Assembly: GCA_963377175.1 (NCBI GenBank)
Contig: CAUJNA010000487.1
Coordinates: 153,185-217,184, forward strand
Direction: 5' to 3'
DNA length: 64,000 nt
DNA from: Effrenium voratum
Taxonomy: Eukaryota > Sar > Dinophyceae > Suessiales > Symbiodiniaceae
Of the stretch, positions 1,779 to 63,934 are shown in pieces. Both the position numbers and the translations under genes were made by a program. The notes under the pieces are model-generated. The model was given only the letters and a program-made list of their open reading frames with translations. It made no database searches and was not told the origin of the DNA. How positions within the stretch are numbered: the stretch's first letter is position 1; the number at the start of each line of letters is the position of its first letter.

Positions 1779-1789
1779 TATATATAAGA

Positions 1790-3325: not shown

Positions 3326-3338
3326 GTATTTAATATGT

Positions 3339-3368
3339 ATTTCTATATAATTAATTCTATATAGAAAT
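3339..3368. promoter_or_regulatory. 11-bp perfect hairpin between the penton gene and the next gene
   Basis: Arms 3339-3349 and 3358-3368 are perfectly complementary around an 8-base loop. The hairpin ends 8 bases before the ATG at 3377, in a TATATA-rich stretch that could also supply a TATA-like promoter. Confidence 0.6.
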
Positions 3369-3376
3369 ATATATAG

Positions 3377-3955: not shown

Positions 3956-3971
3956 ATCTAATTATTGTTAT

Positions 3972-4388
3972 ATGAACAAGTCAGATTTTGAAAATATAAC
4001 ATCAACATTTACAAAGAATGGCAAAGCAGTTAAATTACCAACATCAAACAAATTTTATAATCCCATAACAAAACCAAATAAAAAATATAAATCTAGCGTC
4101 CATTACTATTACGAAGGAGACAACAAAGCACATCAACCAAATTATACATATCTGAAAGAAATGAAGGAACAGTTAGAATTTCATAACGCTAAAAAAGATT
4201 ACGCTATATTTCAAAATAGAAGAAGATATCAAGATGAAGCACAGACATATTTTAATGAAATCCAAAGGTTAGAAGGTGAAAAAATAAGACATCATCCATC
4301 AAGTGAAACTGGTAAAAACTATTCGGAAATGATTAAGAAGAAAAAGGATATAATCAATCAATTAAGAAAGAATTTTAAGTTTGAATAA
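3972..4388 (+). CDS. Hypothetical basic, helix-rich protein
   Basis: A 138-residue protein beginning MNKSDFENITSTF. It is basic, and its second half (from about residue 65) is a predicted long charged helix (FNEIQRLEGEKIRHH; MIKKKKDIINQLRKN). There is no membrane segment or recognisable domain. It starts 16 bases after the preceding stop in the same orientation and its stop abuts a 14-bp palindrome, so it is probably the last gene of a short transcription unit with 3377-3955. Confidence 0.55.
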   Translation: MNKSDFENITSTFTKNGKAVKLPTSNKFYNPITKPNKKYKSSVHYYYEGDNKAHQPNYTYLKEMKEQLEFHNAKKDYAIFQNRRRYQDEAQTYFNEIQRLEGEKIRHHPSSETGKNYSEMIKKKKDIINQLRKNFKFE

Positions 4389-4424
4389 ATTAATTAGATT
4401 AATAATTTTATAATCTAATTAATT
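4388..4424. promoter_or_regulatory. 14-bp perfect inverted repeat between two genes
   Basis: Arms 4388-4401 and 4411-4424 are perfectly complementary around a 9-base loop. The hairpin starts at the stop codon of the preceding gene and ends 7 bases before the ATG at 4432. It is the longest of the intergenic palindromes in this AT-rich block. Confidence 0.65.
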
Positions 4425-4431
4425 ACATATA

Positions 4432-5400
4432 ATGAGATTAGACCATATGAAAACATTAAAATCACAGTTAAGATTAAGACCGTCGTATAATGAACTCATC
4501 AAGGAAATTACAAAGGAAGAATATAAAAATAAGAATATAAGAGATGTAATAGACAGGAATGCTTAATATTTTCGTGACAGTCCGTTAGGAACAGTTTATG
4601 ATAACAATACCGTAGATTTGAGACAACAACACTTTCAAAAAATATTAGAACAACCTAAAACAGTCCCGCATTTTGATATGGCAAAGGACGATGAAATGGA
4701 TGATTTAAGAGACGGAGCAATACAAACACTAAGTGCCACAATGGACAATTCAGAAGAACAACACGAACAACAAATAAGTCAAGTTTCAAGAAGAGTTAGT
4801 AGCGAACAAATAGCAGACTTACACGAACGAGCACAACGGGCAAGACAATTAGAAGGACAAGAGGGGAGAAGACCAAGTATCCAATCAATGGTAACTGCAA
4901 AATCAAGCGATACTGAAGACTTACCACCATTAGAACCGATTATGACAGAAGACGAAGCAGTTAAAGAATATGTTAAAGGCCTTGTAAATCGTAAATTCAA
5001 AGATGTAGCAAAGAAAGTGGCATCATCAAGAGAGCAAACACGGGACAACGCTGACAGTTCATCCACAGTCCAACAAAGACAAACAAGAACACATAAGGAA
5101 ACCATTGACTATTCAACTGATATAAACCATTGGAGAGGAAGCACAGTAAAAGAAGAAGACATATTATTTCAATTACATTTAAGAGGAACAGGACTTACTG
5201 AAGTACAGGAACAACAATATTCAAACACAAAGAAAAAGGGGAAAGGTAAAAAGGAAACTGGTAGAACTTTTTTAGTTGGACTGGTGGAGCAACTTATAAA
5301 CAGTGGAAAATGGACGACGAAAGTAAATGATGAATTGTTAAGAAAAAGAATGAACGATTGGAGAGGTATGAAAGGAAAGGGCAAAGCAACAAAAGATTAA
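4432..5400 (+). pseudogene. Gene with RPSY-type N-terminus, interrupted by an in-frame TAA
   Basis: From ATG 4432 the protein reads 44 codons (KTLKSQLRLRPSYNELIKE, then IRDVIDRNA), meets TAA at 4564-4566, then continues in the same frame to 5400 for another 278 codons. The continuation is polar and charged, with Gln-rich and Ser-rich segments and a lysine-rich tail, and shows coding-like composition. The start matches the N-termini of the genes at 5437 and 6356, so the first 44 codons are real. Either the TAA is a nonsense mutation or sequencing error, or a shorter protein starts downstream. No enzyme motif is visible; the family is seen in virophage/PLV genomes as structural or unknown ORFs. 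Confidence 0.55.
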
Positions 5401-5407
5401 TAACTCA

Positions 5408-5436
5408 TTTATATAATTTATCAATAATTATATAAA
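5408..5436. promoter_or_regulatory. 11-bp perfect hairpin ending at a start codon
   Basis: Arms 5408-5418 and 5426-5436 are perfectly complementary with a 7-base loop. The right arm ends at the base before the ATG at 5437. Confidence 0.65.
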
Positions 5437-6324
5437 ATGATTAACGACCTCAAACACGAGTTAAGGAAACGCCCTACTTATGATGAAATGCTTAAACAAG
5501 CAATCACAAGCAAACTAAAAACAACAGTTATGCTGAAGAAATACAAGAAAGGAATGTTATTGAATAATTTTGATTTTGATGAATTAGATTTAATGAATTA
5601 TAAAAATAAAGAACGATATATGAATGCAGAAGTTATGATGGCAGACAAGGCAACACAAACACTTAACAAAGAAAACAAGGCAACTCAAACAGACCTACCA
5701 AATGATAAGGCGACGCAAACTTATAATTTTGATGATATGACAAAGATTTTAGGTGGGTCTTCAAAGAAGTTTAAGAGCAAACTGATGAACAAGGCAGAAG
5801 CAGAAGCATTAGCATTTACATATGACCCTGATTTAAATGATGATGACGATGATGATGATGATAAAAAAGATGATGATAATGATAAATACAGAAAGAAACT
5901 ATTTATGTTGATGAGGACTATAGATTTGATGTTGAGGTCAGGTTTTAGTATAGGGCAGATAGTGGCACATTTAACATATCACACTACATTAACTACAATT
6001 CAAGGTTCAGAGTTGCTGGTTAATTTGACAATGAATTCATTAGTATCATCTTATGATATAGCAAGTGCCATAATGAATTGGATGAATACAAATGTTAGTG
6101 AAGAAGTTGAGTTAAACACAGAACCCCCTGTTAGTGTTCATAGTTCTCCGCCTATCACTGTTAATAGTTCTTCAACGCATACTGTTCATTCATCATCATC
6201 AGAAGAAAATGCTAATTATGAAATAGCACCGCCTACTGACATCCCTGTTCCTACTGATGCTGAAAGTGAAAATGATGAAACTGAAAACCAAAATACCAAC
6301 CCTTCAAAAACAAAAACTACTTAA
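5437..6324 (+). CDS. RPTY-family protein with three KATQT (LC8-binding-like) motifs
   Basis: A 295-residue protein. Residues about 1-20 carry LKHELRKRPTYDEMLKQ, the motif shared with the genes at 4432 and 6356. Residues about 70-100 contain KATQT three times, spaced 10-11 residues apart. This is an exact match to the K-x-T-Q-T motif bound by dynein light chain LC8. An Asp-rich run with eight consecutive Asp residues follows, then a helical, partly hydrophobic region, then a Ser/Thr/Pro-rich tail. In other viruses LC8-binding motifs link particles or polymerase complexes to dynein transport or dimerise disordered chains. Here that role is inference. The start is fixed by the hairpin immediately upstream. 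Confidence 0.6.
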   Translation: MINDLKHELRKRPTYDEMLKQAITSKLKTTVMLKKYKKGMLLNNFDFDELDLMNYKNKERYMNAEVMMADKATQTLNKENKATQTDLPNDKATQTYNFDDMTKILGGSSKKFKSKLMNKAEAEALAFTYDPDLNDDDDDDDDKKDDDNDKYRKKLFMLMRTIDLMLRSGFSIGQIVAHLTYHTTLTTIQGSELLVNLTMNSLVSSYDIASAIMNWMNTNVSEEVELNTEPPVSVHSSPPITVNSSSTHTVHSSSSEENANYEIAPPTDIPVPTDAESENDETENQNTNPSKTKTT

Positions 6325-7030
6325 AGAAATGAGACCATAATATAATAATAAAGTAATGGAAGGTATGACAGTATTAACCACAGAAAAGGTAGAGAAGTTG
6401 ATGGAGAAAAGACACAAAGAAAGTGACGAAGTTAAAAGGTTCATTAAGTTAAATCCTTATCCATCTTATGAAGAAATGAACGATGTAATTGAAACAATGA
6501 AAGAATTAGGTTATCCAGAAAAGCCATTAATACAATGTTATCATCGTGATTTGTTAATGAAGACTTACAATGAACTATACGATGAAGGAAAGGTAATTGA
6601 ATATGGAGCAGAGTTAAACAATATAACATCTACAGGCACTTATAAAAATCTTGAAGATATGAAGTTCTTTTTTAGGAGAACAAATTTTCTAATTCTTCAA
6701 GCAATCATTAAGTTTAATTATGATAAGCATAAGAGAAGAAATAAACATATTGACAAAGAAACAGTATTAGGTTGGTCAAGAAAAATAGAACAGTGGTGGA
6801 ATGATATTGGTGAAAACTTTGGTATTTATGCTGATTTTAGCAATTTGAAACCATAAGCAATATTTGTTCAGTTTATTCATATTAACAACTTATAATATGA
6901 TTAAACCATTCTATCCCCCAGAAAGCCTTAAAATGGTCTGAAACCTGAACCTTGAAAATGATGAAACTGAAAACCAAAATACCAACCCTGCAAAAACTAA
7001 AAAGACTTAAAGAAATGACCCCTTAATATA
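6268..7030. repeat. 80-bp direct repeat pair (6268-6347 and 6957-7030)
   Basis: The end of the 5437 gene plus its downstream gap (from AATGATGAAACTGAAAACC through AAAGAAATGA) is repeated, with a few changes, at 6957-7030 just before the gene at 7044. The second copy is noncoding, so the 3' end of a gene has been duplicated as an intergenic segment. Confidence 0.6.
6356..6856 (+). CDS. Hypothetical protein with PSYEEM motif, RPSY family
   Basis: A 166-residue protein containing KLNPYPSYEEMNDVI, related to the RPSY/RPTY motif of the two preceding genes, here after a charged leader of about 30 residues. The remainder is mixed helical with aromatic residues (MKFFFRRTNFLILQAI). There is no membrane segment and no catalytic motif. 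It follows the 5437 gene by 31 bases in the same orientation. A second ATG is possible at MEKRHKESD; the first was chosen because it follows an AT-rich promoter-like gap. Confidence 0.5.
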   Translation: MEGMTVLTTEKVEKLMEKRHKESDEVKRFIKLNPYPSYEEMNDVIETMKELGYPEKPLIQCYHRDLLMKTYNELYDEGKVIEYGAELNNITSTGTYKNLEDMKFFFRRTNFLILQAIIKFNYDKHKRRNKHIDKETVLGWSRKIEQWWNDIGENFGIYADFSNLKP

Positions 7031-7731
7031 TTAAGAGAAAAAAATGAATAAGTGTATCAGAGAAGAACTGACAAAAGAAATTGTAAAATGTCGTGCTTGC
7101 AAGATATTCATCAACAAAGTTAAAAAAAGCAAATGATATATTACCTGACTGTATCATTGATAATATTTTGAGTTTTGTAAGTTGTAAAAGATGCACCATT
7201 ACAAAACATTTAATGAAAAACGAACCTGACAATTTAAAAGAAATGGATAAGTGGATTTGGTATATGACGAGGTTAAATAAATGTCCAACGAAAAAGTCAT
7301 TGCGGTCAATATTTACAACAGGTTTAGACAAAACCTTAAAAGAGTATGGATATGATAATACGTTAGTTTTATATTATGATAGTGCTTTCAAGTTTCATTA
7401 TAATTTACTTTATCATAACAATGATGCTTATGTGTCTTGTAGGGATTTTAGTGTTTCAATGTGTAGAGGTTTTCTGAAGGCGTTGAAGTGGCAATATATA
7501 GAAAACAGAGACAAGGTCGCTTATAAAAACATTTTTGATAATGAGTTTTATCATAAATTTGTTTGTCATTTGTTAGAAAAGAAAAGGTTGATTATAGACT
7601 GGTTTAATTATAGAGGTTCTGTTGATAGTGATTATGATTAAGTTTATTCATATTATTTAACTATAATATGGTTAAACACTTGTAACCCCCAGAAAGCTTA
7701 AAAATGGTCTGAAACCTGAAACTTGAAAATG
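6870..7731. repeat. 90-bp direct repeat pair flanking the 7044-7641 gene
   Basis: 6870-6961 and 7641-7731 share GTTTATTCATATTA, then CCCCCAGAAAGC, then AATGGTCTGAAACCTGAA. They bracket one gene, and a third degraded copy of the last part lies near 7850. The arrangement suggests gene gain by tandem duplication, or a shared 3'-end signal. Confidence 0.6.
7044..7641 (+). CDS. F-box-like hypothetical protein, one probable frameshift
   Basis: An ATG at 7044 opens a short frame (CIREELTKEIVKCRACKIF) that ends near 7134. The second frame, open across 7093-7641, continues as LPDCIIDNILSFVSCKRC, which resembles an F-box start (LP..I...ILSFV). The body is rich in Tyr, Lys and Trp. A one-base indel within the A7 run near 7120 joins the frames into about 198 residues. 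F-box-like adaptors occur in large algal viruses and could recruit host ubiquitin ligases. The resemblance is limited to about 20 residues. Flanking 90-bp repeats mark it as a possibly acquired module. Confidence 0.4.
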
Positions 7732-36956: not shown

Positions 36957-38065
36957 ATTTAGATTTTTATATAAATAAAAAAAGCCACCCTCATCCTTGA
37001 GGTGTGTGATATAGGGATGCCAACATGCGAAGCGCACGGAGCTGAGTTCCAGGTCGTTGGGCGAAGCAGTATTAATCCTACGCGCCCACTCGGCACTGCC
37101 CAAAAAACCTCCCCCCAGCGCCAGACCCAGGCCATTTGACAAGCCGCGAGGAAGTATTCTTTTCTTTTTTTATAAAAAACTAAATGCTTCAATCCCTCTG
37201 CAGGCAGTCTGACAAGGAATGCATGTGTTTAGTTTTTATATAAAATAAAACTTTATTTTTTTTAAAAAAAGAAAAGAATACTTCCTCGCGGCTTGTCAAA
37301 TGGCCTAGCTCTGTGCCCCTTGAGGCGGTTGTGTTCATATAAAAATCTAAATGCTTCAATCCCTCTGCAGGCAGTCTGACAAGGAATGCATGCGTTTAGT
37401 TAGTTTTATATAAAATAAAGACTTTATTTTGAAAAATAAAACCGCCTCAAGGGGCACAGAGCTAGGCCATTTGACAAGCCGCGAGGAAGTGTTTCGTTAA
37501 AAAAAATAGTTTTTATTTTATATAAAACCTAAACGCTCACATTCCTTGTCAGACTGCCTGCAGAGGGATTGAAGCATTTAGCTTTTTAGAAAAATAAAAC
37601 CGCCTCAAGGGGCACAGAAAGCGGATGCCAGGGATCGAAGCATTTAGATTTTTATATAAATAAAAAACCGCCTCAGGGGCGGCACGGAAAGCACGGGATG
37701 CCAGGGATGGAAGCATTTAGATTTTTATATAAATAAAAAACCGCCTCAGGGGGGCACGGAAAGCACGAGAGACAGCCTGCCAGGGGTGGAAGCATTTAGA
37801 TTTTTATATAAATAAAAAAAACCGCCTCAGGGGGCACAGAAAGCACGGGAGACAACCTGCCAGGGATCGAAGCATTTAGATTTTTATATAAATAAAAAAC
37901 CGCCTCAGGGGGCACAGAAAGCACGGAATGCCAGGGATGGAAGCATTTAGATTTTTATATAAATAAAAAAACCGCCTCAAGGGGGGCACGGAATCACGAG
38001 AACAGCCTGCCAGGGATGGAAGCATTAGATTTTTATATAAAATAAAAAACCCCTCAGGGGCACAG
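36957..38065. repeat. Tandem and inverted 75-130 bp repeats, TTTTTATATAAATAAA family
   Basis: At least nine copies of TTTAGATTTTTATATAAA-type segments joined to CCGCCTCAGGGG, GCACAGAAAGCACG and GCCAGGGATGGAAGC. Units at 37620-38065 are direct; those at 37150-37560 include inverted pairs (AATGCTTCAATCCCTCTGCA and its complement). No gene is present. Confidence 0.85.
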
Positions 38066-38067
38066 AA

Positions 38068-38818
38068 AGCACGCCCAGCGCACACGGCCACAGGCGCCGT
38101 CGCCGGAGCCACGCTGTCGTCCACAGGGGCCGTGTCAGGTAGCTCGCTGAGCATCACGGGGGCGGCCAGCGTGGGCCTGCTGAGCTCAGCCACCGGAATC
38201 ACGGGCAGCACGTTGACCATCAACAACACGGCCAACGCCGGGAACTTCACCACGGTGGGCGACGTGTCCACGGGGACGTTGACAGCCTCGGGCGCAGCAA
38301 CCGCGGCGAGCTTCGCAGCTACCGGGGCGCTCACGGGCGCCACGCTGACCATCACCGGGGCGGCCTCCGCGGGCCCGCTGGACTGCGAGAGCCTGGACTG
38401 CACCTTCACGGCCACGAGCGGCGGAGTGTCGACGGGCAGCGTGGTCTGCGGCGACGTGACGAGCTCGGGCACGGTCTCCGCGCTCTTCGCCTCCAACACG
38501 CTCATCGTGACCAACACCTCCGACTTCTCGGACGATCTCTTCCTGACGAAGAACTGGGCGGGCTGGAGCAAGCTGCAGATTTCCAACAACAGCGCGGCCT
38601 CCGACAGCGGCCCGGAGCTGCTGGGGGTCTTCCTGGAGCGGGACGGCGGGACGCACCAGTGCGAGCTCATCATGATCAACGATGAGGCGCTGGTGCAGAC
38701 GAAGAGCCTCTCGACGCAGCTGTTCTTGACCACGAACCAGAGGAACCCCGGCTGCCTCGTGATCGCGGGCAACACGGGCAACGTGGTCTGCAACACGAGC
38801 TTCACGCTCTCTCTTTAG
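38068..38818 (+). pseudogene. Partial second copy of the fibre gene, cut by a TIR element
   Basis: 38068-38806 is a near copy of about 43371-44118 in the fibre gene (ASVGLLSSATGITGSTLTIN, then FLERDGG, then NPGCLVIAGNTGNVV). This copy stays in frame over about 230 residues where the other copy has indels and a stop. It has an in-frame deletion of about 21 bases before FLERDGG. It ends at CNTSFT where the TIR element at 38812 begins, so the C-terminal S74-type domain is missing. Confidence 0.7.
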
Positions 38819-39612
38819 AGGGGGTTTCCCAAATGGATTCTATTCTACCTGAGAGGCTCCTGGCACTCGTCCGTCCAGCATTTGACCTCGTCCTGCGAAG
38901 GATTCGAAGTCTAAAACGCTGCGTGCAGGCGTGTGGCTGCAAAATAATGACCCCTAGATATGCTTGCAAAATGCCCAGCAGCTGCGTTTCTGCAAGGCGA
39001 GCTAAAAAAAAACAGGGGAAAAAAAGAAAGCCAAGCCAAACCAGCCAGAAAGCCAGCCAGGAGCCAAACCAAACCAGCCAGAAAGCCAGCCAGAAGCCAA
39101 GCCAAACCAGCCAGGAGCCAAGCCAAACCAGCCAGAAAGCCAGCCAGAAGCCAAGCCAAACCAGCCAGAAAGCCAGCCAGGAGCCAAACCAAACCAGTCA
39201 GAAAGCCAGCCAGGAGCCAAACCAAACCAGCCAGAAAGCCAGCCAGAAGCCAAGCCAAACCAGCCAGAAAGCCAGCCAGAAGCCAAGCCAAACCAGCCAG
39301 AAAGCCAGCCAGAAAGCCAGCCAGAAAGCCAGCCAGAAGCCAAGCCAAGCCAGCCAGAAGCCAAGCCAAGCCAGCCAGAAGCCAACCAAAAAAGCCAGCC
39401 AGGGTTTCCTTTGAGGGCGCTCGCCTTGCAGAAACAAAGGCAGCTGCTGGGCATTTTGCCAAACCGCATATCTAGGGGTCATTATTTTGCAGCCACACGC
39501 CTGCACGCAGCGTTTTAGACTTCGAATCCTTCGCAGGACGAGGTCAAATGCTGGACGGACGAGTGCAAGGAGCCTCTCAGGTAGAATAGAATCCATTTGG
39601 GAAACCCCCTCT
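38812..39612. mobile_element. Nonautonomous element with about 190-bp terminal inverted repeats, copy 1
   Basis: The left end CTTTAGAGGGGGTTTCCC (38812 onward) is the complement of the right end GGGAAACCCCCTCTAAAG (to 39612). Similarity extends inward for about 190 bases on each side (through CAAAATAATGACCCCTAG). The middle (39020-39400) is a tandem array of GCCAGCCAGAAGCCAAG units of 18-25 bases. No transposase is present. It ends the fibre copy at its left edge. The same TIRs occur at 52942-53478. Confidence 0.8.
39020..39400 (+). repeat. AACCAGCCAGAAAGCCAGCC minisatellite inside the TIR element
   Basis: More than 15 imperfect units. Both strands give long open frames (Lys-Pro-Ala-Arg-Ser or Trp-Leu-Ala-Gly repeats) that are artefacts of the repeat. 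Confidence 0.85.
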
Positions 39613-40452
39613 AAAGTTCTGTGTTCGCGCTTTCGCGCGGCGCAGTCTGCAGCTGTCGCTGCAGTCACTGCGCAGTTCGCGCAGTTCGCGTCTGCGGAAC
39701 TCCACGCGGAACTCCACGCGGGCAGCAACCAAAAAATGGTTGGTGCCTGTTTCCAGTTCTGAGGCACTTCGAGAACACAAGTGCCACTTGTGTTGAGCAT
39801 CGCCACCTGCCCGGCATCGGAGCCCTGCCGAGCCCGCGCCAAGGTCGGAATTCTTCCCAGGAAAAAAAAATCCAGTTGTCCTGTGGGGGGACAACTGTCC
39901 AAAGTTTCGGCGAACCTGCCCGGCATCGGAGCCACGCCAGCCCGCCGACGTGGAGGCTTCGATACCTAGCGTGCCAGGCACGCAGCTGATGTCTCATATG
40001 TTATCACCAACTACGAAGCAGTGTCCGATTATGTCGGACACTGGCTCCATCGTGCGCAGGTCCCGCGATTGACCGGCGCCATCGGTCAAATCAAATTGAG
40101 TCACATCCGGGAAAAAACCCTGGTGCGGGCCTGGTGCGGGCCTGGTGCGGGCCTGGCGCGGGCCTGGCGCGGGCCTGGTGCGGGCCTGGTGCGGGCCTTG
40201 CGGAAACTTGCGCCGAAGAGGGGTTGGTGTGTTTGACACACCAACAAGCGGTGACGCCTGTGAGGGGGTGGTGTGTCAAACACAATACCCCCGCCGGCAT
40301 GCCACTCCAAGACCGAAGCCGCGGGTTCGGACTGAATGGTACTCAACTGCGCTCGCGGCAGGAATCGAGCCCCGTGCGGAGTAAGAAGCGCTTAGCTCCT
40401 TGGCCGACGCCTTAGCCACTGGACTAAGGCGTCGGCGAGAACATATGTAAAC
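39613..40452. other. Intergenic spacer with short repeats and hairpins
   Basis: No gene is present. It holds GCGGAACTCCACGC repeats (39690), a CTGCCCGGCATCGGAGCC module also present at 54050 (39808, 39917), a palindrome CAGTGTCCGA..TCGGACACTG (40019-40043), a GGGCCTGGTGC minisatellite (40116-40198) and a hairpin TTGGTGTG..CACACCAA (40223-40243). Confidence 0.6.
40361..40427 (-). other. tRNA-like Pol III promoter (A and B boxes)
   Basis: On the minus strand TAGTCCAGTGG (40427-40417) matches the A-box consensus. GGCTCGATTCC (40371-40361) matches the B box with one change. The spacing of 45 bases is longer than a usual class I tRNA, and the acceptor stem does not pair, so this is not a functional tRNA. 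It fits a tRNA-derived SINE head or a tRNA pseudogene. It lies just upstream of the fibre gene. Confidence 0.4.
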
Positions 40453-43400: not shown

Positions 43401-44435
43401 GCCGCGCTGTCGTCCACGGGGGCCGTGTCAGGCAGCTCGCTGAGCATCAGCGGCGCGGCCAGCGTGGGCCTGCTGAGCTCCGCCACAGGAATCACGGGCA
43501 GCACGCGCACCATCAACAACACGGCCAACGCCGGGAACTTCACCACGGTGGGCGACGTGTCCACGGGGACATTGACGGCCTCGGGCGCAGCAACCGCGGC
43601 GAGCTTCGCAGCCACCGGCGCTCACGGGCGCCACGCTGACGATCACCGGTGCGGCCTCCGCGGGCCCGCTGGACTGCGAGAGCCTGGACTGCACCTTCAC
43701 GGCCACGAGCGGCGGAGTGTCGACGGGCAGAGTGGTGTGCGGCGACGTGACGAGCTCGGGCACGGTCTCCGCGCCGCAGCTCTTCGCGTCCAACACGCTC
43801 ACCGTGACCAACACCTCCGACTTCTCGGACGATCTCTTCCTGACGAAGAACTGGGCGGGCTGGAGCTAGCTGCAAGTGTCCAACAACAGCGCGGCCTCCG
43901 ACAGCGGCCCGGAGCTGCGGCTGCTGGGCAACCAGAGCGCGCGGGTCTTCCTGGAGCGGGACGGCGGGGCGCACCAGTGCGAGCTCATCATGATCAACGA
44001 CGAGGCGCTGGTGCAGACGAAGAGCCTCTCGACGCAGCTGTCCTTGACCACGAACCAGAGGAACCCCGGCTGCCTCGTGATCGCGGCAACACGGGCAACG
44101 TGGTCTGCAACACGAGCTTCACGAATTTGTCGGACAGCCGGGTGAAGACGGAGATGGCTGAGGCCGACGTGGCGGAGCTCAAGCAGCTCTTTGACTCCGT
44201 GGAGGCCAAGCAGTACAAGCGCCCGGACATGAACGAGGACCTGAGGCTGGGCTTCGCCGATTTCGCAGGAACAAAGTGGAAGAATTTGACGGGCACCGCC
44301 CGGTGGAGCGACGGCACGGAGATGGTTACTCTCGACTACTCTCACCTCACCAGCGTGCTGTGGGGGGTGTGCAAGGGCTTCCAGGCCCGGCTGGACGAGG
44401 TGGAAGCCTGGCAGGGGGGGCCAAAGAACAAGTAG
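40453..44435 (+). CDS. Long tail-fibre-like protein with S74-type C-terminal chaperone, several frame breaks
   Basis: Joined across breaks near 41260, 41400, 42790, 43200, 43615 and 44085, plus an in-frame TAG at 43867-43869, this encodes about 1300 residues. Order: Ala/Ser/Thr-rich trimeric rod (40453-41560), phage-fibre-like YYT..QVD.LL repeats (41750-42130, e.g. LLAYYTAAQVDALVGDYRT), two tandem domains of about 130 residues (42240-42620, 42780-43180) sharing PWNIVRTYNLTPG / AWNIVRTYTLTPG, a G-A-S beta-rich shaft, and a C-terminal part with SDSRVKTEMAEADVAELKQ and LDYSHLTSVLWGVCKG. The last part fits the S74 intramolecular chaperone that trimerises and cleaves fibres. It would bind the host surface. 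The TAG replaces a Lys codon kept in the 38.5-kb copy. Confidence 0.65.
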
Positions 44436-44439
44436 AAAA

Positions 44440-44577
44440 AAATTGTGCATGCCTCCTCGTTCTAGAGGACCCTTGCTCAAGCTCCTTTTTGGGGCGACAA
44501 GTAGGTGTGTGCAGGCCTCCCTGCATCCAGGGAACCTTGAGCAAGCTCCTTTTTGGGGCAACAAAGCTGTTTTTTAA
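44440..44577 (+). repeat. Two direct copies of a 55-60 base intergenic unit
   Basis: CTTGCTCAAGCTCCTTTTTG at 44472 and a near copy (CTTGAGCAAGCTCCTTTTTG) at 44533, each followed by GGGGC(A/G)ACAA. They fill the gap between the fibre stop and the integrase frame. Confidence 0.7.
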
Positions 44578-45551
44578 ATGGAGGCACCTGGCCGACGACT
44601 TCAACGTGAGGGACCCGCGGAAGCTGTACCAACTCGCCAGGCAGCGCGACCTCGACGTGACGCAGGCCATGGCCTTCGAGGCGCTGAAGGCCGACGTGGG
44701 CCGGCAGGTGCAGGCGCCCCGGCCGCGCGCGCTGGGCAAGTCGGCCGCCGAGGGGCCGAACGACCGGCTGCAGGCCGACCTCATCGACTTCAGCCAGAAC
44801 ACGCGGGGGAAGACGAAGTACGGCCTGGTGGTGATGGACGTCTTCACCCGGGAGGCCGCCGTGGAACCTCTGCAGAACAAGAACGCCGAGACGGTGGGCC
44901 GGGCCACCAAGCGCGCCGCGCGGGAGCTGACGGGGGACGACGGGAACTTCGTGGTCACGACAGACCTGGGCAACGAGTTCGCCACGCTGGACCGGGAGCT
45001 GCCCGGAAGCCGTGCACCGCACGAAGCGGCCCGAGGACCGCAACGCCATTGCCGTGGTGGACCGGGGCATCCAGACGCTGAAGAAGGACCTGGCCACGAG
45101 GGTGGCGCGCAAGGGCGGGCAGTGGAGCGACCACTTCGAGCGGGCGGCCGGGGCCTACAACGCGCGGCCCCACGAAACGGTGCACGGCGCGCCCGAGGAC
45201 GTGGAGAAGCAGCCGGCCACGGAGTTCAGGGTCCTCCAAGACAACGCCGACAAGTTCCAGCACAACAAGGACCTCACCGAGCGGCGCGTGAAGGCGGTGG
45301 AGGACGCGGGCGCCTTCCGAGTGCCGACGAACGCGGCGAGGAGCTTCAACCCTCAGTACGGCGACGTGCAGCAGCTGGGGGCCGTGGACTCCATGACCGT
45401 CCGCAGCACGGAGGGCCGGGAGACCCTGCTGAAGCTGGCGCTGCAGGGCAGCGGCGACGCGGCGGGCCGGCTGACGAGACGGGGCAGGCCGGCGGCTGTG
45501 AGGCAGCTGGACGACTTCCTGGCGCCTCCGAGGCCCAGGACCCTCGACTAG
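44560..45551 (+). CDS. Polinton-type rve integrase, 5'-incomplete, one frameshift
   Basis: The frame KWRHLADDFNVRDPRKLYQ leads to NDRLQADLIDFSQNTRGK (first catalytic Asp near 44776) and NFVVTTDLGNEFATLD (second Asp near 44965). After a break near 45010 the second frame continues DRNAIAVVDRGIQTLKKDL, where the third acidic residue would be Asp in VVD rather than the usual Glu. It goes on to AAGAYNARPHETVHGAPEDV and a C-terminal basic tail with stop at 45549-45551. An HHCC zinc domain and an initiator ATG in frame were not found, so the start is missing. Integrases of this type insert Polintons/PLVs and recur in dinoflagellate genomes. Confidence 0.75.
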
Positions 45552-46100
45552 CCTCCTTTGAAAATGATTTTTTTGAGGAACGACCCGGCCTCCTCGATTC
45601 CGAGGAAGCTTGATCGGACCCGTTTTTGGCCCCAAAAAAAACTTTGATCACACTCAAGTTGGAATTGCCTGATCCTGATCGAGCGAAAAAACTAGAAAAA
45701 AAAGGTTTTGAGACATTGCGCGGGCCCGTCGGAACTCCCGGGGCCTGCTCATCTCCTTGGGTTTGGGGTGCTCGGGAAACCAACGGGTTGGGCGAACCAA
45801 TCAAATGAGCGGGGCTAGCGCAAAACCGTGCAAAACGAGCTATTCTTACAGGCCGTATATGAATATACACCCTGTAAGAGTAGCATTTCGTGGCGCAAAA
45901 CCGTGCAAATGTCCCTTTAGGGTTTGGGGTCCTCGGCAAACCAAACGGGTTGGGCGGACCAGTATCAAGCCCAAACGGGTTGGGCGAACCACTCAAATGA
46001 GCGGGGGCTGGCATGGGCAAACCGCGCAAAACCGTGCAAATGTCCCTGCGTTAGGGTTTGGGGTGCTCAAGACACAAAAAAAAACGCCAGACCCGCAAAG
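45552..46100. other. Repeat-rich spacer between integrase and array
   Basis: No gene. Two or three copies of AAACGGGTTGGGCG(A/G)ACCA...CAAATGAGCGGGG and of GGCGCAAAACCGTGCAAATG occur, with the hairpin at 45839-45886 between them. AAAACCGTGCAAA also flanks the hairpins at 58.5 kb in inverted form. Confidence 0.65.
45839..45886. promoter_or_regulatory. Virus-type hairpin, member 1
   Basis: Arms GCTATTCTTACAGG and CCTGTAAGAGTAGC (one G-T wobble) surround the core CCGTATATGAATATACAC, which can itself pair GTATAT with ATATAC. The same core with different, still complementary arms occurs at 58571-58616. Confidence 0.7.
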
Positions 46101-52824: not shown

Positions 52825-52941
52825 ACGCTTCGGCCCATGCGAACAAATACTTCCCTAGACCGTCTCCACAATGATCCGTCTCGGACCAGGGTATGTTTTT
52901 TTTAGATCCGTCTTGGACCTGGGAATAAAGGTCTCCTACTC

Positions 52942-53478
52942 TCTCTTTAGAGGGGGTTTCCCAAATGGATTCTATTCCACCTGGGAGGCTCCTAGCACTT
53001 GTCCGTCCAGCATTTGACCTCTCTCTTTAGAGGGGGGTTCCCAAATGGATTCTATTCTACCTGAGACCTCGTCCTGCGAAGGATTCGAAGTCTAAAACGC
53101 TGCGTGCAGGCGTGTGGCTGCAAAATAATGACCCCTAGATATGCGCCGCAATTTGGCTCCAGGTTGCATTTCAAGCGAGCAAACCTTTGCAGGGCTAAGA
53201 AAAAAACAAAAAAAAAAAGAAAACAAGGGGTCCCAAAAAAAGGGGTCCCCGAAAAAAGGGAAAAGGGGTTTCCTTTGGCAAAGCATGACATCGCTTGAAA
53301 TGCAACCTGGAGCCAAATTGCGGCGCATATCTAGGGGTCATTATTTTGCAGCCACACGCCTGCACGCAGCGTTTTAGACTTCGAATCCTTCGCAGGACGA
53401 GGTCAAATGCTGGACGGACGAGTGCTAGGAGCCTCTCAGGTAGAATAGAATCCATTTGGGAAACGCCCTCTAAAGAGA
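52942..53478. mobile_element. Nonautonomous TIR element, copy 2
   Basis: The left TIR starts TCTCTCTTTAGAGGGGG near 52942; the right TIR ends with its complement near 53478. The left arm has a nested duplication of its outer 45-80 bases (a second CTCTCTTTAGAGGGG at about 53020). Arms extend about 190-240 bases, to GCAATTTGGCTCCAGGTTGC and its complement. Flanking TAC on both sides could be a 3-bp target duplication. The interior is only an A/G-rich spacer of about 100 bases with no transposase. It shares TIRs with 38812-39612 but not the interior. Confidence 0.8.
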
Positions 53479-53489
53479 GAGATACCGGG

Positions 53490-55119: not shown

Positions 55120-55269
55120 TGGAAGCGCGTCTCTACACAGCGATGCACTCCCAGACTCGCCGCCCGGATTGCCCGGAAAACTCCGTCAGCGTCCTGCTGT
55201 GTAGCAGTGCGCTGACAGACTCGCCGCCCGGCTTCCCGGCTTCAAATTTGGCAAGTAACGCAAAGGAAA

Positions 55270-56122
55270 TGGGGAAGATCAAGCTGTTTCCTACGACAGA
55301 GTATGGCAGTAAGCAGCCCTCTGACCCCGTGGTGCCCCTGGTGCCATGCACGGGCATCTTCCTCGGGCCATCAAAATCGGGCAAAACCGTGGCTCTGATC
55401 AGCCTGATTCTGGAGCAGTATCGCGGCGTCTTTGAGAGAATTTACATCTTCAGCCCGAGTGTGAACATAGACGACGGCTGGATCCCCGTCAAGAAGTACA
55501 TTGAGGGGGACCTGGGGGTGAACACAGAGCGGGAGCAGACGTATTGGGACGAGTGGGACGAGGCGGCGCTGCGGCGCATCATCCAGCAGCAGCGTAAGAT
55601 CACGGGCAGCGCAGGATGCCCACCATGGTGGGGCGCAGCAGCACGTCCGCGTAGCCGCCCTGGTGCACCGCGCGGGCGATGCGCGGGTCGTTCACTTCGT
55701 CGAAACCCTCCATGGCCTTGTTGCGGTTGTACTCTCTGCCCTTCAGCAGGTCATGCACGGCCACGGTGCGGAGGCGTCCAAGAAGTTGGAAATGAAGAAA
55801 CTGTACCAGGTGCTTGTAGTCATCGACGACTTTGCTGACACGCCGCAGCTGCACAAGCCTCGCGGCGCCCTGGACACTCTCTTCATCAGGGGCCGGCACA
55901 TGCAGATAAGCACCTGGGTGAGCTCGCAGAAGCTGCGGCTCATCAGCGCAGCCGTGCGGGTGAACATGCAATTCCTCTGCTGCTGGAGGCTGCGCAACCA
56001 GCACGAGCTGGACGCCGTCATTGAGGAGCTGAGCGCCCTGCTGCCGAAGGAGCAGCTCTACCAGTTGTACGAGCAGGCGACGCGGGAACCTTACAGCTTC
56101 CTTTTCGTCTACTACCTGAAGC
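55270..56122 (+). CDS. FtsK/A32-type DNA packaging ATPase, N-terminal part, broken by two insertions
   Basis: The start at 55270 (MGKIKLFPTTEYGSK) fits the family. Walker A is TGIFLGPSKSGKTVALISLI, followed by YIFSPSV. The frame is interrupted at 55605-55770 by an inverted MCP fragment and resumes at 55771 with KLYQVLVVIDDFADTPQ (Walker B, hhhhDD) and LDTLFIRGRHMQISTWVSSQ. It stops being ATPase at 56122, where the copia LTR begins. The last part lies beyond the copia element (63831-63934). It would pump DNA into the capsid. This is a hallmark of PLVs and Polintons. Without the insertions the reading frame is continuous. Confidence 0.75.
55605..55770 (-). pseudogene. MCP fragment 2, inverted inside the ATPase gene
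   Basis: On the minus strand this reads RTVAVHDLLKGREYNRNKA, then FDEVNDPRIARAVHQGGY and LLRPTMVGILRC. MCP fragment 1 at 59095 ends ...NGL, and this fragment begins (L)RTVAV, so the two were adjacent in one MCP. The fragment matches the same region of the AT-rich MCP in layout (central jelly-roll segment). The ATPase frame reads cleanly from before 55605 to after 55771 when it is removed. There is no convincing target duplication. Confidence 0.6.
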
Positions 56123-56248
56123 TGCTAAACTTTCTTTTCCATGCAACTGAACGCCTTGATCCAAGGTCATGCATCTCAATCTATAAGACATGCTCCAAGC
56201 GTCTCATGCTGTACACAAGTGTAAACAAAGGGAATGCAATTATTAGCA
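56123..56248 (-). repeat. 3' LTR of the copia element
   Basis: 126 bp, TG...CA on the minus strand, matching 63700-63825 throughout by eye. Flanked on its left by GAAGC. Confidence 0.85.
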
Positions 56249-56454
56249 CCCCGCCTTGAAATCTCCTGGCGTCTCAACATAAGGGGATTTCACCTCACAG
56301 TCACCTCCTCATGTCCGTGAGAAACCTAAAAAGGGCTCATGCAAAAGAATTGCGAGCGCACACATCCAAGTGAAACTCTAAGCTCCTATACCGTGCCCAT
56401 GCGGCTCCAAGCCGTGGCGTAAACCGGTATCCACTTTTCACACGCTTCCAAATC

Positions 56455-59400
56455 TCATAAGTTTCTCGGCCATCCAAAGCAATTGCGGCATGCTGCCTTC
56501 CCATGCGTCTCTGCAAAGGATTTCAGCAGTGTCTTCGTCTCTCTGCCTGCAATCCACTTGCATCCCTTCTTGTGAAAGAAGGCTCCATGCTTTGTCACAT
56601 ACACTGTCAGCTCACTTCCAGAAACAGCCGCGTTGCTGCTTTCACGCAAAACAGTTTCAGCACGACTGCCGCTGCTGCAAGCACTTTGCACTTTCTGAAT
56701 CTGCTCCGAATTCACATCCGACTCTTCAGACTCCAAAATGGTAGTCTTCTGCAATGCTTTGGACTGTTCACATCTCCTGCACCATGCGATGAAAACATTC
56801 ATCTGCTGCCACAACCACCACACATGTCGGCACGAGCATGTAAGCACGCAAATGCACACGTACAGGGGTTGCGATCACCTCCAAGGTGTCCTGGGTTGTC
56901 CACTCCAAGTGAACTGCACTCTGATTTCCGTTGTCACTGCTATTGGGCTCAACTCCGCGCCGGCCCAAGGCGTCCACATCATCATCCAGCTTCAAAGCGT
57001 CGCCTGCCTGAACAAGCAATCTCATCATGCCCGCGGCAAAGATCCGCTTAGCCAGATTCGTCGTAGTTGTGCTTCCTGTGGCCTGAAACTCAGGTCTCGC
57101 GCCAATCTCAGCTCGGATCTGTCTGATCAGCTGTTTGGCTTTCTCCTTCTCCTCAAAGGTGTCATACTCGTCCTGACCAACATTCAACCACACTCCATGT
57201 TGACTGCCATCCTCATCAAATTTCACACATCCAAGCATGTATCTAAGGAATTGCACACGTCCCTTCGCCAAACATTTCGTGTTGAGGTCCGCGACATTGT
57301 ACACTGTGGGCACAGATGCCAACTCAAACTCGCCGCGTTTCAGTCTCTGCTGACACCACAACATCTGTCCCTGAATGTGACGCGTCCGACCACAACCTGA
57401 ACGCTGCATAATTCCCCAAGCTGCTGATGAATCCAGAAAAAGAACAACTCTCAGCTTCTCACCAAACGTTGCAAATTGAATGATCGCCTTCAAATAAAGA
57501 GCATCGCATGCTGCACTGACTGCAGAAGTGTACTCACTCTCCGCTGAGCTAAGGGCGATGTTCTTCTGTGTGCGAGAGCACGAGTAAACAGTATGTTTGT
57601 TCAAACAGAAAACTGCACTTGACGTGGACTTCCGGCCCACTCTGTCACCTGACCAATCAGCGTCGCTGAACACCTCCAGCACATAGCGGTGTTCACTGCT
57701 TTGCGAGATGATGCCCTGCCCATCTTGTGGCACTTCAAAAGAAAGGCCATCATACCGCACATTGACCAGATATCTGCACAAATGCACAAGCAGCTTCCAT
57801 GCTTGCTTCCCAGGCGAGCTCATGGCTGATGCCAATGTTTTAATCGCAAATTGACATTCCAATAAATCTCCACTCAAATAAAGCAATATTCCTGTGGCTG
57901 TCCTAAACCGTGATGCTTCCTCTGGCTCCAATGGTTCTTCAGTGATACTCTCAAAAATGCCTGCTGGGGGAAATGGAGTCGATCTGCTGTTTGCACGTGA
58001 ACCATCTAACCCAACGGCTTCAAACAGTCTGTCGAAATGACGTTGATGTGGCTGAATGACCAACTGCTGACTGGTATGCAAAAGGTGTTTCCGTTTCAGG
58101 AACCAAATCTCATCACCAGGGTCCCGCATTATGGTATAATCAATTTCATACTTCTGTTCCAGTTTTGCAACCACTTCCTCCAAAACAAAAGATTCCTCAC
58201 CAGTCGCAATCATGTCATCAACATGAATCATGCCCACGAACTTTTGCTGCGCTCGAATGACTGTTGGGCTCTCCACACAAACCTCAGCTGCGATCTGTTC
58301 CCGCAATTGGTCTGTGAATTGCTGATGCCAGTTCTGTGCACCATCACGTTGCCCTGGCAAACATCTGGGCAATAAGAAATGTCTCTCCACACCTTGCAAA
58401 TCCGCCCAGCTTTGACCAGCTGGCGCGAGACATTGAGGCTGCTTAAAAAAAAATAAAACCCTCCTCCTCGGGGAGAGTTTTTTTTGCACGGTTTTGCACG
58501 GCTTTGCGCTTGCAAAATGCTATTAGTCTAGGCCCTACGCAAATGTAGGCCCTGTTTTGCGCTGCCAAATGCTATTAGTCTAGGCCGTATATGAATATAC
58601 ACCCTGGACTAATAGCTTTTTCGCACGGTTTTGGGCCACAAAAACACTATTCTTCCAGGGTCTATATTGATATAGGGCCTAGAAGAATAGTTTTTCCTTC
58701 GCCGTACGAGTCAAAATGCGTGTATATAAACAAGCATGGAGGTAGTCACCGCCGGAGCCCAGGATGAGCTGATGCAGAGCCTGGACTACAAGCTGAAAAC
58801 AAGCACCACCAGCTACGTCACGGCGCGGCATGACGTGCAGTACTTCCCCAGCTCGCTGAGCTCGTTCTCCCCCACAACCTCTCGGGTCTGCCGCATCCCG
58901 CTGACCAGCGGCACGTCCTTCATCGACCCCGAGTCCATCAAGATCGCCTTCCGCGTCAGGAACACGGACGGCACCAACCCGCTGGCCCCAGCCACGCCCA
59001 ACCCCGCTTCGTCCAGCGCGTCCAGGTCTTCGCCAACGGCCAGCGCTGCGACGACATCAACTACTACGGCCGGGAAGATGCTGCCGCCAATGGCCTGAGG
59101 AACTGTCAAATAAGCATCCTTGACGTCCAACCCCAACATCACCCAGCCAGCTTCTCGATTTGCCATGTACAGTGAAGGGATGATCTTCGTGATGACCTGC
59201 GATGTAGCTGGTGCAAAAACAACTCTGTCCGGCTCCCACCAATTGAATTCTCGGGCCACAAATCGTGCCCGTCGCAAATAAGCACCTTGCCCATTCCGCA
59301 ACTTGTACCTCCAGCTGCACACGAATTTCGTAGACAAATACCTTGCTGCCGATGTCGCTGCCTCATCCGCTGTCATCGGAATGAGGGCCGGGATTTTGCT

Positions 59401-62400
59401 CAACCTGGCCAGCTCTTCCTCTTTGGCCAGTTCATCCAGTTCTGCCAGTTCTTCCACTGACATCCAACTGGTCTCCAGAGTCTGTCTGCGGCTTTCTCGG
59501 AAGTGCACATCTGCTGCATCTCATCTTGCAGAGTGACCTCATGGTCCAGCAATGCGGGCTGATGCGTACCTTCAACTTCAATATCCAACAACTCATCTCC
59601 ATGAAAATATTCATCCTCCCCAATAATGCAACCCACGACCATTCCACTTGGCTCTGACGCTTCCTGAGCTTCTGAGAGCGAAACATCAGGCTCCAACCGT
59701 GGCTTCTTGCGGGCCTCAATGCGTGGCCGCTTCTGAGGGGATGCATCACCTGGGTGTTGCTCTGTCATATGCTTCTCCGCCACAGAAGGCATGTCAGCGT
59801 CACGAACATCACTCACCCCTGCACTCGGAGCGATCTCCACATGCCCCGCCTGCGATGAACCTCCTTCTTCCAGCCTTTGCTTCTTGTGCTGTGGAGATTC
59901 ACCCTTCTCAGGCTCTTCCGGGGGCATCACCGTCTCCGGATCCGAAGCCGCCTCGTCATCAAAGCGCTCCAGTGGGTTGACGAGCAGACTCGCCAGTGGC
60001 TCCCCATCTTCGAGAATAGGGAATTCAGCGTCCTTCGCAGCTTGGGCCGGTCTCTTGGGTTTGACTGCTCCCAAATATCCACCCAAGTGGCCTGGGTGAT
60101 CCCACGGCATCCTTTTGCATGCATCAACCATAGTCGCATTCCAACGATCTGGGATTCGCCGAATCGACCGAGATAAAATCAACTCACCACCATGCGTAAC
60201 CAACAAATGCATGTCATTTGCAGAAACACGTGTCAACCAAACACATTTGATCCAGCGAGGATTGCCCTTGTTGACAACCTTCACATGCGCCATGACCGAC
60301 TCTCCGAATTGAACCAGCCAACTGCCGTATGGGGCGCCTGTGATCTTTTCCCATGCTGCATGGTACCTACAATGAAGGAAACTTGCATGCACAAATGCCC
60401 AGCCATGCAACGGGTGTCCCGTGGGGATCTTCATCTTGCACCCTTCCTCCAGCTGTGATAGCAAAATGCATGCCTGGTACCGAATGGCCTGTCCTGCTTG
60501 CTCCACTTGCCCATTCGCCTGAGACTCACCAGTGGGGATTGTCTGCAACTGAGTTCTGCACCCAACCTGCAGCCTGATTTTCTGAATGCGTTTCTGAAGA
60601 CTCGTCAGCGAAACCTCATTGTCACACTTCAAGATGCAATTGCTGTAACCCAAAAAGGCCATGAACCGAACCACTGCTGCTGCAAGCATCTCTGTGGCCA
60701 GTCCACCTTTGGCTGGAGTGGGAACCGCCTGCACCAATTTCGTATCACGATCCGTGATGATCAAGCAAATGAGTGCCTTGTCCTCAGTTGCCTCTTTCGG
60801 CAAGTCACCACGTGCTGTAAAATTGAAATTCATGCTTACCACCGGCAACCCATGCTCTGAGTCGCGCTTCACCAAATGTTTGTCTTCCCGAGCCTTGAAC
60901 GATATGCAATGACTGCACCAAGGCTGGTACGGATAGTGCGTGAGAGCGTGCGCATCATGCTCCGTTTTGCTTGGCGCCACAACTGGCGCAACCTCTTTGG
61001 CCTCATGCTTGGCCAACTTCTCCTCGTTGATGACCACCTTGTGATCCTCCACCAGTTTGTGACTCTGCTGATGCTGCCAAAGCCTCTTCAGAATCACCTG
61101 CTTTCCACCTGATTTCGGCAAGCGCCACTTCTCACACGCCGTCCGTAGCGCCCTCAACGAGCATGCTGCATTCAACAGTTCACCATCCTGATCTATCTCA
61201 ATCTCATCCGGATCCCGCGGAACTGCGGGCACATCAGCACCTGCTTTCGCGTGTTCCTCCACCACTTTGTCATCCAGAGGGGGCTCCTCCATCTCAAGCT
61301 CAATCTGCTTTTCTGAGGCTTCCACCACTGCCGCTTTGTCTCGGCTTCCTGAAGAGCGTTGCCGAAGCCCTTCAGACGCCTTTGCCATCTCTTCCTCCGA
61401 CGATCTCCGAGGTTGGTCCTGCTTCCGCATCTCCTCTATCTCAAATCCAAGAACACCAGCATGCTGATATCCCTTGTGAGCAATTGTAATCACATCTGTA
61501 GGAAAATCCAAGTATTCAATCGGCTCATCCATGGTTTCTTTCTCCTGCAACTTCTCTGTAAATTCAACCAGCCACCATTTGTCACTCACATAAATCAGTG
61601 TTGTGCGCCGATCTACCATCTCTCTCGGGAGATTGCTCGGCACGTCCATGTAATTTGATCCAAAAACCTTCACTGCCCAAACGCCATCTGAGAGCTGTGC
61701 CCATCCTGCTCCAAGTCCAGAAAGAACTTCACCTAGCTTCACAGGAATGCACTCGCTCCCAACTGCTTTGACTGCACGAATCTCAGCCTGCACACATAAT
61801 GAATTGCGCACAAAATCTGTCGGTATGACAGTCCTGTCATTCCACAAGCTCATCTGTCCATTCACACTGCCGATGTTCCAACCATGTTTCAACAGTTTCC
61901 CAACTGAAAGCAATGGGGCTGAAACCGGGGCCACCAGAAATTCCTCTCTGATGATAGTGCTTCCAAAAGCCAAGTCCACAAGTCGCCGGCCTTGCACCTT
62001 CATCGGATGCCCCTGAGCATCGTGAAAACGCTGGTTCGCAGCTGAGCTCCGAGCGGGCATACCCACCTGGGCCATATGCACAGGCAGAATACTGGCGTCC
62101 GCACCGCTGTCCAATATCACATTTGCCAAAGTTGGCATAGCCGTGTTCACCCTCTTCACCGCGCGAATACATGGAAAAAAGTCTTCGGAATAATCAGAAA
62201 CAGAATCTGATAAATCATCCATGTAACCATCAAGAATATGGCTGCATGGCAAATGCGAATCCGGCTCTGTCCAATGCAAGTCGCTGTCGCTGTATGTCAT
62301 GTCAAAACACATGCAAGGCTGGTGGAGTTGCTCATGTTGCTCTTGCTCACTGACCATGAACAGATTTCCATGCTGAAACCATGCATCATCTGAACCATAT

Positions 62401-63652
62401 GCACCAAATCGAGTCAAATCAAACACCTCATACTCCTCATCAAGAAATTCAACACGTCGCACCGTGTTCCCTGTTGTATTTGCTGCTGCACCTGCCGCAG
62501 GGACCTGTTCGGCTGTCTGATCTTCAGCGCGTCTCACACCATGATTGTTGGTCTCACGCTGAAGCTGCCAACAATCGCGTTTCCAATGTCCTGGTTTTCC
62601 GCAATGTAAGCAAACATTTGAAGAAGGTCCAGGTCCGTTACCTTTGCCTTTCTGGTTACCGTAACCTTTGCCCTTCTCCGATTTGCTCTGCTGCTTGTCC
62701 TTTCCTTTGCCTCCTTTGTCCTTGCCAAATTTGTTCTTCCCTTTTCCTTTGTCCTGCTTTCCTTTTCCCTTTCCTTTGCCCTTGACGCGGTCGATCTCCA
62801 TGGGGGTCGGCTCGTCCTGATCTTGATAGCTGGCTGCTATGGGGTTCGCCCATTTTGTCTGTGAAAGTTCCCAACGTTGCACCAGTTGTCGAAGTTCACC
62901 GTATGTTGAACTATCTGCAATCATCAAATTGGTATACTGTTTGAGTTGACCAGTCAAACACTTCAACAAAATCGCCATCTTGTGATCGTCAGTGAGTGTT
63001 GTGTTGGAAGCCAACTCGTATTCACGCTGCGCCTGTTCCAGCTTACTCAACTGAAGCATCATGCCTTGCTGAGGAGAAAAACTCGGCCATGAATTGATTG
63101 CCTGCAGCAAAGCCAATGCGCGCGTCCGGGCTGTGGGAAGTCCCGAGAAATCACCCTGTAACTCTCAAAACCATTACCACTCTCAATACCCTTCAAAATC
63201 TGTCTGCATCTGTCATTGAGAAGCGAGGCCAAAACTGCAAATAATACCTGACTCCGATGTTTCGCCTCCTCTGTCATGGAACTCAATTCAACAGGGGTTT
63301 CTCTCGCTTTGACTGCAATAAGATCTTCCACATACCCAGGGTCAACCGCTTCCAACCATCTTTCCAGTTTCCAGCTCCACGACCTCCACATGGAAAGTTC
63401 CTCATCACGTGTCTTTGCCGGGAAGGGATCTGGCTTAGGCAAAATTCTAAGCAGCTCACGTGAATCTATCCTCGCTCTGTCTGCTGGCGCACCACCACCT
63501 GTCTGTAGTATCGCCATTCTCTGCACTGCTTCACTGCTTGCTTGTGCCGCTTGCATGGCACTTCGCAACATTGTCCGTAACTCATCTATCTCAGTCGGTG
63601 GGTCGATGTCAAGGTCATCCCCTAAGGGGATATCCACACCAGCAGCGTCCAT
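56455..63652 (-). CDS. Copia Gag-Pol polyprotein, interrupted
   Basis: Gag starts at ATG 63652. A frame break near 63140 joins it to a 1238-codon frame ending at 59400. Order: Gag helices; zinc knuckle CLHCGKPGHWKRDC (near 62600); protease NVILDSGADASILP (near 62110); pre-integrase HYPYQPWCSHC (near 60920); integrase with VVSMNFNFTARGD (first acidic position is Asn, near 60830), ILKCDNEVS and SQANGQVEQ; then reverse transcriptase LGLDVKDAYLTVPQ up to 59100. The RT is cut there by the MCP insertion and resumes at 58433 with LPGQRDGAQNWHQQF, FVGMIHVDDMIATG and RNase H (LEVFSDADWSGD, ALSSAESEY). After another break near 56850 a C-terminal HKKGCKWIAGRETKTLLKS / CRNC domain ends near 56455. Confidence 0.8.
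58571..58616. promoter_or_regulatory. Virus-type hairpin, member 2
   Basis: Arms GCTATTAGTCTAGG and CCTGGACTAATAGC (one wobble) enclose the same CCGTATATGAATATACAC core as at 45839. An additional partial copy of the left arm lies at 58520. Confidence 0.7.
58646..58693. promoter_or_regulatory. Virus-type hairpin, member 3
   Basis: Arms ACTATTCTTCCAGG and CCTAGAAGAATAGT surround CTATATTGATATAG. It lies about 45 bases upstream of the MCP start codon at 58736, next to a TATA-like box. Confidence 0.65.
58736..59095 (+). pseudogene. MCP fragment 1, GC-rich PLV, N-terminal part with a frameshift
   Basis: ATG 58736 follows a TATA-like box. The frame reads DVQYFPSSLSSFSPTTSRVC, LTSGTSFIDPESIKIAFRV and GTNPLAP. 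A break near 59008 passes into a second frame with RFVQRVQVFANGQRCDDIN and YYGREDAAANGL. The order YFPSS ... FVQRVQVF.G matches the AT-rich MCP (NFYPSS ... FDRVRVLMGD). The last base of the fragment joins on to the TCCGCACCGTG start of fragment 2 at 55770. It lies in the copia RT. Confidence 0.7.
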
Positions 63653-63699
63653 GGCCCTAGCCGGTTAGAGCGTGTTGCCCGTCACCGGCTCCGCTACCA

Positions 63700-63825
63700 T
63701 GCTAAACTTTCTTTTCCATGCAACTGAACGCCTTGATCCAAGGTCATGCATCTCAATCTATAAGACATGCTCCAAGCGTCTCATGCTGTACACAAGTGTA
63801 AACAAAGGGAATGCAATTATTAGCA
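63700..63825 (-). repeat. 5' LTR of the copia element
   Basis: 126 bp copy of the 3' LTR, followed on its right by the GAAGC target duplication. TGGTAGCGGAGC next to it (63699-63688) resembles the initiator-tRNA-Met primer site of plant copia elements. Confidence 0.85.
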
Positions 63826-63830
63826 GAAGC

Positions 63831-63934
63831 CGAGGAATGAAATGTTCTACAAGCGCTTTGAAGAGCGTTTCGCATTGGAAAGAGAAGCCGATGGGAGCGG
63901 CGCTCAGCTTCCTGGGCCAGAAGCTGTTCGCTAG
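63831..63934 (+). CDS. Packaging ATPase, C-terminal end beyond the copia element
   Basis: Directly after the GAAGC duplication the ATPase frame of 55270-56122 resumes: RNEMFYKRFEERFALERE, ending at TAG 63932-63934. The FYKRFEERF motif is typical of the C-terminus of A32-type ATPases of PLVs, which supports both the identity of the gene and the insertion point of the copia element. Confidence 0.7.

Follow-up and report, generated by a model that had tools for sequence, protein, structure and literature searches.

Neighbouring pieces of a putative viral capsid gene at two sites of one dinoflagellate locus: probable capture at a break and a local shuffle

Introduction

How can two consecutive pieces of one viral gene come to lie in opposite orientations at two nearby sites, one in a retrotransposon and the other in the packaging ATPase gene of a virus? 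The question is raised by a stretch (nt 153,185–217,184) of contig CAUJNA010000487.1 of the dinoflagellate Effrenium voratum (the window, meaning the whole 64,000 nucleotides analysed). The assembly searched (1.156 Gb, 3,699 contigs) holds many copies of an endogenous polinton-like virus and a few of the copia element concerned. With dozens of natural copies at hand, each junction can be read to the base. For one dinoflagellate genome, 2,535 MCPs have been reported (PMC10120064).

Results

The ATPase gene at 55.3–63.9 kb of the window is interrupted twice, by a short segment (F2) and by a copia-type element. The 5′ part of the gene (A1, nt 55,269–55,605, plus strand; its Pox_A32 match is obtained with the flanks joined) is followed by F2 (nt 55,606–55,768, minus strand), a 163-bp internal MCP segment that matches MCP copies at 96–100% and stands inverted in the ATPase. 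Beyond it lie the middle part of the ATPase (A2a, nt 55,769–56,122, plus strand), the final 5 bases of which are the target-site duplication of the copia element, then the LTR retrotransposon itself (nt 56,123–63,825, minus strand), identified by its LTRs and 5-bp duplication, and the 3′ end of the ATPase (nt 63,826–63,934, plus strand), which opens with the second copy of the duplication (nt 63,826–63,830). Within the copia reverse transcriptase (RT) there is a patch made up of F1 (nt 58,401–59,072, plus strand), delimited by homology to MCP copies, and F3 (nt 59,073–59,088, plus strand), 16 nt of MCP that are joined directly to F1 and follow F2 in natural copies. F2 sits 2.6 kb from this patch and in the opposite orientation. 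With C1 and C2 for the left and right parts of copia, the observed order is A1–F2(inverted)–A2a–C1–F1–F3–C2; the patch and the moved F2 are the structure as assembled. The original prediction of one MCP piece on the plus strand in a copia RT and another on the minus strand in a viral A32-type ATPase is confirmed.

Joined across the F2 site (~55.45–56.12 kb), the ATPase scores 33.4 bits against Pfam Pox_A32 (cut-off 22.8), and a natural copy (locus L039) scores 44.1 bits (cut-off 22.8). The gene codes for an A32-type packaging ATPase of a polinton-like virus. The name MCP, taken over from the first reading of the sequence and kept for convenience, is a putative assignment that draws on the gene's location and size and on a ~30% similarity to a further MCP-like ORF. 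L039 has an open frame of 426 aa ~3 kb from its ATPase that shares ~30% identity with a second capsid-like ORF, located in the window; this frame matched 0 Pfam families and gave no significant match in PDB. Fold prediction for the other window ORF, which is AT-rich and MCP-like (first 218 aa), was unusable (pLDDT 39). A further virus-like element, distinct from the one described above, occupies the left end of the window (nt 1–7,700, ~30% G+C); its MCP-like gene is divided between two frames (nt 758–1,537 and 159–875, minus strand). An integrase profile match (rve, nt 44,195–45,610) scored 30.8 bits, under the cut-off of 32.6. Short repeats (nt 37,167–38,073, 38,807–39,616 and 52,939–53,481) occur several times, some in both orientations, and are up to 99% alike. 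A dinoflagellate spliced-leader sequence gave 0 matches in the window with up to 2 mismatches allowed.

Both interruptions of the ATPase have readable empty sites. F2 is absent from 39/39 other scored copies (of 3,068 first-look candidates), the set on which the uniqueness of the ATPase–F2 joint is based; the search scores only the best candidates, which biases it toward undamaged copies. The halves of the ATPase overlap by the same 3 bp in 37 of the 39 (C939 and C3311 are off by a base or two), and the exact F2-less string is present in 27 of 29 loci read, the remaining two matching none of the search patterns. Taking F2 out leaves the ATPase just as it stands in other copies. The segment had been placed at nt 55,605–55,770, close to the extent given above; the triplet CGG at nt 55,769–55,771 is common to MCP and ATPase. 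The copia insertion is equally clear: its LTRs (nt 56,123–56,248 and 63,700–63,825) are identical over 126 bp, a 5-bp duplication (GAAGC) flanks it on both sides, and the copia-free site with a 5-bp overlap is seen in 29/29 natural ATPase loci aligned. The element has Ty1/copia LTRs and a 5-bp target duplication.

The F1 search scored 40 places (the best of 1,776 first-look candidates), 39 of them outside the window. At the seven of these 39 where the DNA was compared, the matches end at window nt 59,072 and F2 starts there. E values reached 1e-250 for F1 in the genome search and were below 1e-75 for F2 in 7/7 loci, which excludes chance matches of F1 or F2 to MCP copies. The comparison was made over 31 other MCP copies; this set excludes five loci that belong to the window and eight that had been retrieved a second time, and L028, where F2 is present without a qualifying F1 match, was left out. 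F1 and F2 are adjacent in all 31. By BLAST ends, the gap between them is 0 bases in 29 copies, 1 base in L064 and 2 bases in L014, one match ending 2 positions early. F3 comes after F2 in every copy; 28 have it unchanged, and L049, L053 and L060 each show a single difference. The two pieces had been described as consecutive in the parent gene, and the intact homologues bear this out, their ends meeting. The proposed NGL–RTVAV joint was misread, NGL being a mixture of F3 and copia; the single natural copy translated reads ...YYGR-TVAV...LRC-GKMLPP.

F1 runs from the end of the gene that precedes MCP, through intergenic hairpins, to the start of MCP (nt 58,736–59,072), and has a 4-nt deletion present in 0/28 distinct other sequences. 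F3 (nt 59,073–59,088) is MCP sequence from the far side of F2, and nt 59,089–59,095 are copia. Since F3 continues the patch after F1, F2 would once have been internal to the patch (or its immediate parent) and then removed; the patch thus appears to be one ~851-bp MCP-bearing piece minus an internal 163 nt, namely F2. Both ends of F2 match both ends of the part missing from the patch to within 0–3 nt, an agreement for which the probability of coincidence at both ends would be negligible. Allowing up to 2 mismatches, the F1–F3 joint has a single match in the 1.156-Gb assembly, and a reversed control has 0. The boundaries of the patch differ from those first proposed (nt 58,439–59,095). Earlier guesses for the left end gave way to nt 58,401 on the evidence of genome copies, where the T at that position may be of copia or virus origin. 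A right end with a TGAGG duplication had also been suggested and was wrong; genome copies give nt 59,088. The imperfect hairpins upstream of the MCP start lie at nt 58,515–58,695, and part of them resembles window nt 45,840–45,909 (82% over 71 bp).

The copia query found eight other places in the genome, six of which span both sides of the patch site and two of which are short pieces. The site was read in five of the six, and all five carry 19 nt that are absent from the window; in the sixth (L077) the site is altered and 38 nt on the right side are unmatched. The patch replaced these 19 nt and made no target-site duplication, so the copia frame is not recovered when the patch is taken out. 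The expectation that both host frames would be restored therefore holds for the ATPase and fails for copia. The part of the RT 3′ of the patch scored 17.5 and 20.7 bits against RVT_2 (cut-off 31.6), and flanks joined at boundaries later found to be wrong gave 32.7 and 29.7 bits against the same cut-off. One of these, a copia boundary between ...SIF and KQP... (32.7 versus 29.7 bits), was rejected, the motif being antisense viral sequence. An isolated copia-like piece of 144 bp, 79% identical, occurs in L080 (contig C3071, nt 1,501–1,644).

As to the donor of the patch, the ATPase of L039 and L040 is followed, ~2.7–2.8 kb downstream and on the same strand, by the homologue of the MCP patch, and from this spacing the window element's own MCP is expected ~2.6 kb past the contig end. 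The coding part of F1 differs from the nearest of the 31 copies by 4 substitutions and the window-only 4-nt deletion, and F2 is identical to four of the 31. The similarities of F1 and F2 to individual copies are weakly correlated (Spearman 0.26, p 0.17, 30 copies), so one common donor is not demonstrated by similarity. The best match to the intergenic part of the patch among the loci compared is 92% over 182 bp.

Discussion

The structure was probably produced by insertion of copia into a viral ATPase, capture of viral DNA by end joining in the broken copia, and a three-break shuffle of F2. The retrotransposon would have entered the ATPase of the endogenous polinton-like virus, as the 5-bp duplication and identical LTRs suggest. 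A break in its RT would then have been closed with ~851 bp of viral DNA including the start of MCP, with the loss of 19 nt of copia, giving the starting order A1–A2a–C1–F1–F2–F3–C2. Simultaneously or afterwards, three breaks (two of them 163 bp apart in the patch, the third in the ATPase) would have freed a 3.3-kb block (the middle of the ATPase, the left part of copia and F1) and the 163-bp F2. End joining would have religated both in swapped order with F2 flipped, joining F1 to F3. Copia would already have been in place before the shuffle, because the 3.3-kb block includes the ATPase–copia border. What we infer is a physical move of F2 as opposed to a copy, the role of end joining, the order of the steps and the identity of the donor.

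The junctions share 0–3 nt and show no long homology, which fits end joining: the copia/F1 junction shares one nucleotide (T), F3/copia at most 1 nt and F2/ATPase 3 nt (CGG). The F1/F3 joint is 1 nt shorter than the sequence in 30 of the 31 copies; the exception, L053, is shortened in the same way. CGG occurs at both breaks and may have arisen either by duplication at the one in the ATPase or by fill-in of an overhang at the one in MCP. End joining is also to be expected from an insert in copia that replaced 19 nt and made no target-site duplication; judged by its sequence, the patch would be an insertion of the end-joining type, that is, a fragment at a break without long homology or transposon-type ends. 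A novel capture mechanism, as first suggested, is not needed, and the idea of viral DNA fragments taken up in break repair is supported. The earlier view that this is not a simple inversion also stands, as neither a single inversion nor an insertion plus one inversion produces the observed order. Template switching of an LTR retrotransposon on MCP RNA is unlikely, F1 being antisense to copia and including upstream intergenic DNA. The shuffle is the best explanation because the ends of F2 are those of the gap in the patch, the F1–F3 joint is unique and the empty sites can be read; comparable micro-damage on contigs C1168 and C1070 also backs it. Against it, a conservative move of 163 bp needs three breaks within 3.5 kb, the correlation between F1 and F2 similarities is weak, the intergenic part of the patch is matched at 92% at most among the loci compared, and viral regions rich in repeats are known to be prone to poor assembly (PMC10120064).

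If F2 had instead been copied in inverted orientation into the ATPase by a template switch, with a linked deletion removing it from the patch, the CGG common to both sides of one junction would be accounted for, and yeast offers examples of inverted insertions templated from a single locus (PMC11724301). A copied donor should stay intact, yet the patch lacks exactly the segment concerned, and F2 is far longer than the fold-back insertions of 5–34 bp reported in that study, which also describes distant insertions of ~50–300 bp; we consider copying unlikely. Misassembly within a highly repeated virus family is quite unlikely. It is suggested by the 1,776 and 3,068 first-look candidates for F1 and the ATPase, the contig end that coincides with the window end, the one 100-N gap in the window and the false frameshifts reported in such elements (PMC10120064). 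The joints, however, are seamless and base-exact, the ATPase site is exact and the copia duplication correct, and the errors reported in PMC10120064 consist of substitutions and frameshifts; a segment relocated in inverted orientation is not among them. Two successive inversions, first of the block between the ATPase site and the F2/F3 border and then a re-inversion leaving F2 behind, give exactly the observed order, and a 261-bp inversion is present in a sister ATPase; the second would have to reuse one old breakpoint to the base, and this route seems distinctly unlikely.

Enzymatic routes are less probable again. A specific viral or host nuclease that recurrently cuts and pastes short non-transposon viral segments, of which F2 would be one instance, is very unlikely, and excision and reinsertion of F2 by a transposase or viral integrase at fortuitous sites is highly improbable. 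Excision would have been clean and CGG could be a 3-bp duplication, but the ends of F2 are not inverted repeats, F2 reads as normal coding sequence in the one natural copy that was translated and the event is seen once. The original prediction of two adjacent fragments captured independently at two breaks agrees with the adjacency of F1 and F2 in the 31 copies. It is contradicted by F3, which comes from the far side of F2 and follows F1, so that F2 would have been internal to the patch and then removed; with a separate capture of 16 nt as its only escape, this origin is scarcely credible.

Capture at breaks followed by a local shuffle, as preferred here, has counterparts in known systems. As in the capture of numts and mobile elements at double-strand breaks (PMC2567098), a fragment of a high-copy source fills the break, with short or no microhomology and a small target loss or short duplication; numt insertions show duplications of 1–11 nt and mostly blunt joins (PMC2567098). 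Unlike numts, the source here is an endogenous virus and part of the filler would later have moved to a second site. Templated insertions likewise involve pieces of one locus in opposite orientation and implicate end joining, but the cases presented in PMC11724301 are copies, whereas the donor here lacks the piece. In chromothripsis-like local shattering, the fragments of one stretch are religated in new order and orientation. The locus shares this rejoining of pieces of one stretch in altered order and orientation, and differs in being minute, with two fragments and three breaks in 3.5 kb. The endogenous polinton-like viruses known from dinoflagellates are likewise multi-copy and decaying, with an A32 ATPase and a capsid gene (PMC12721341, PMC10120064), and copia elements lie close by (PMC12721341); a segment moved between two genes is not known from these accounts. 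The damage is of a known kind and unusually legible.

A large genome rich in endogenous viruses can thus serve as a record of break repair, and the patching of virus and retrotransposon pieces into each other is one route of viral decay. The window has a virus piece in copia, and the reverse, copia in a viral element, occurs in L079 (contig C1070), where a 201-bp piece of copia RT (nt 1,501–1,701) lies downstream of the ATPase of a sister element. About 19 nt of the target are gone there, with further deletions close by. The copia break in L079 is ~10 nt from that in the window, which may be due to chance or point to a fragile site (n = 2). Among the 39 other ATPase copies there is at least one inversion, on C1168 (L081, C1168:100500–101500), where 261 bp (nt 227–487) are inverted across the start of the gene; the start of the query is missing from C1039 as well.
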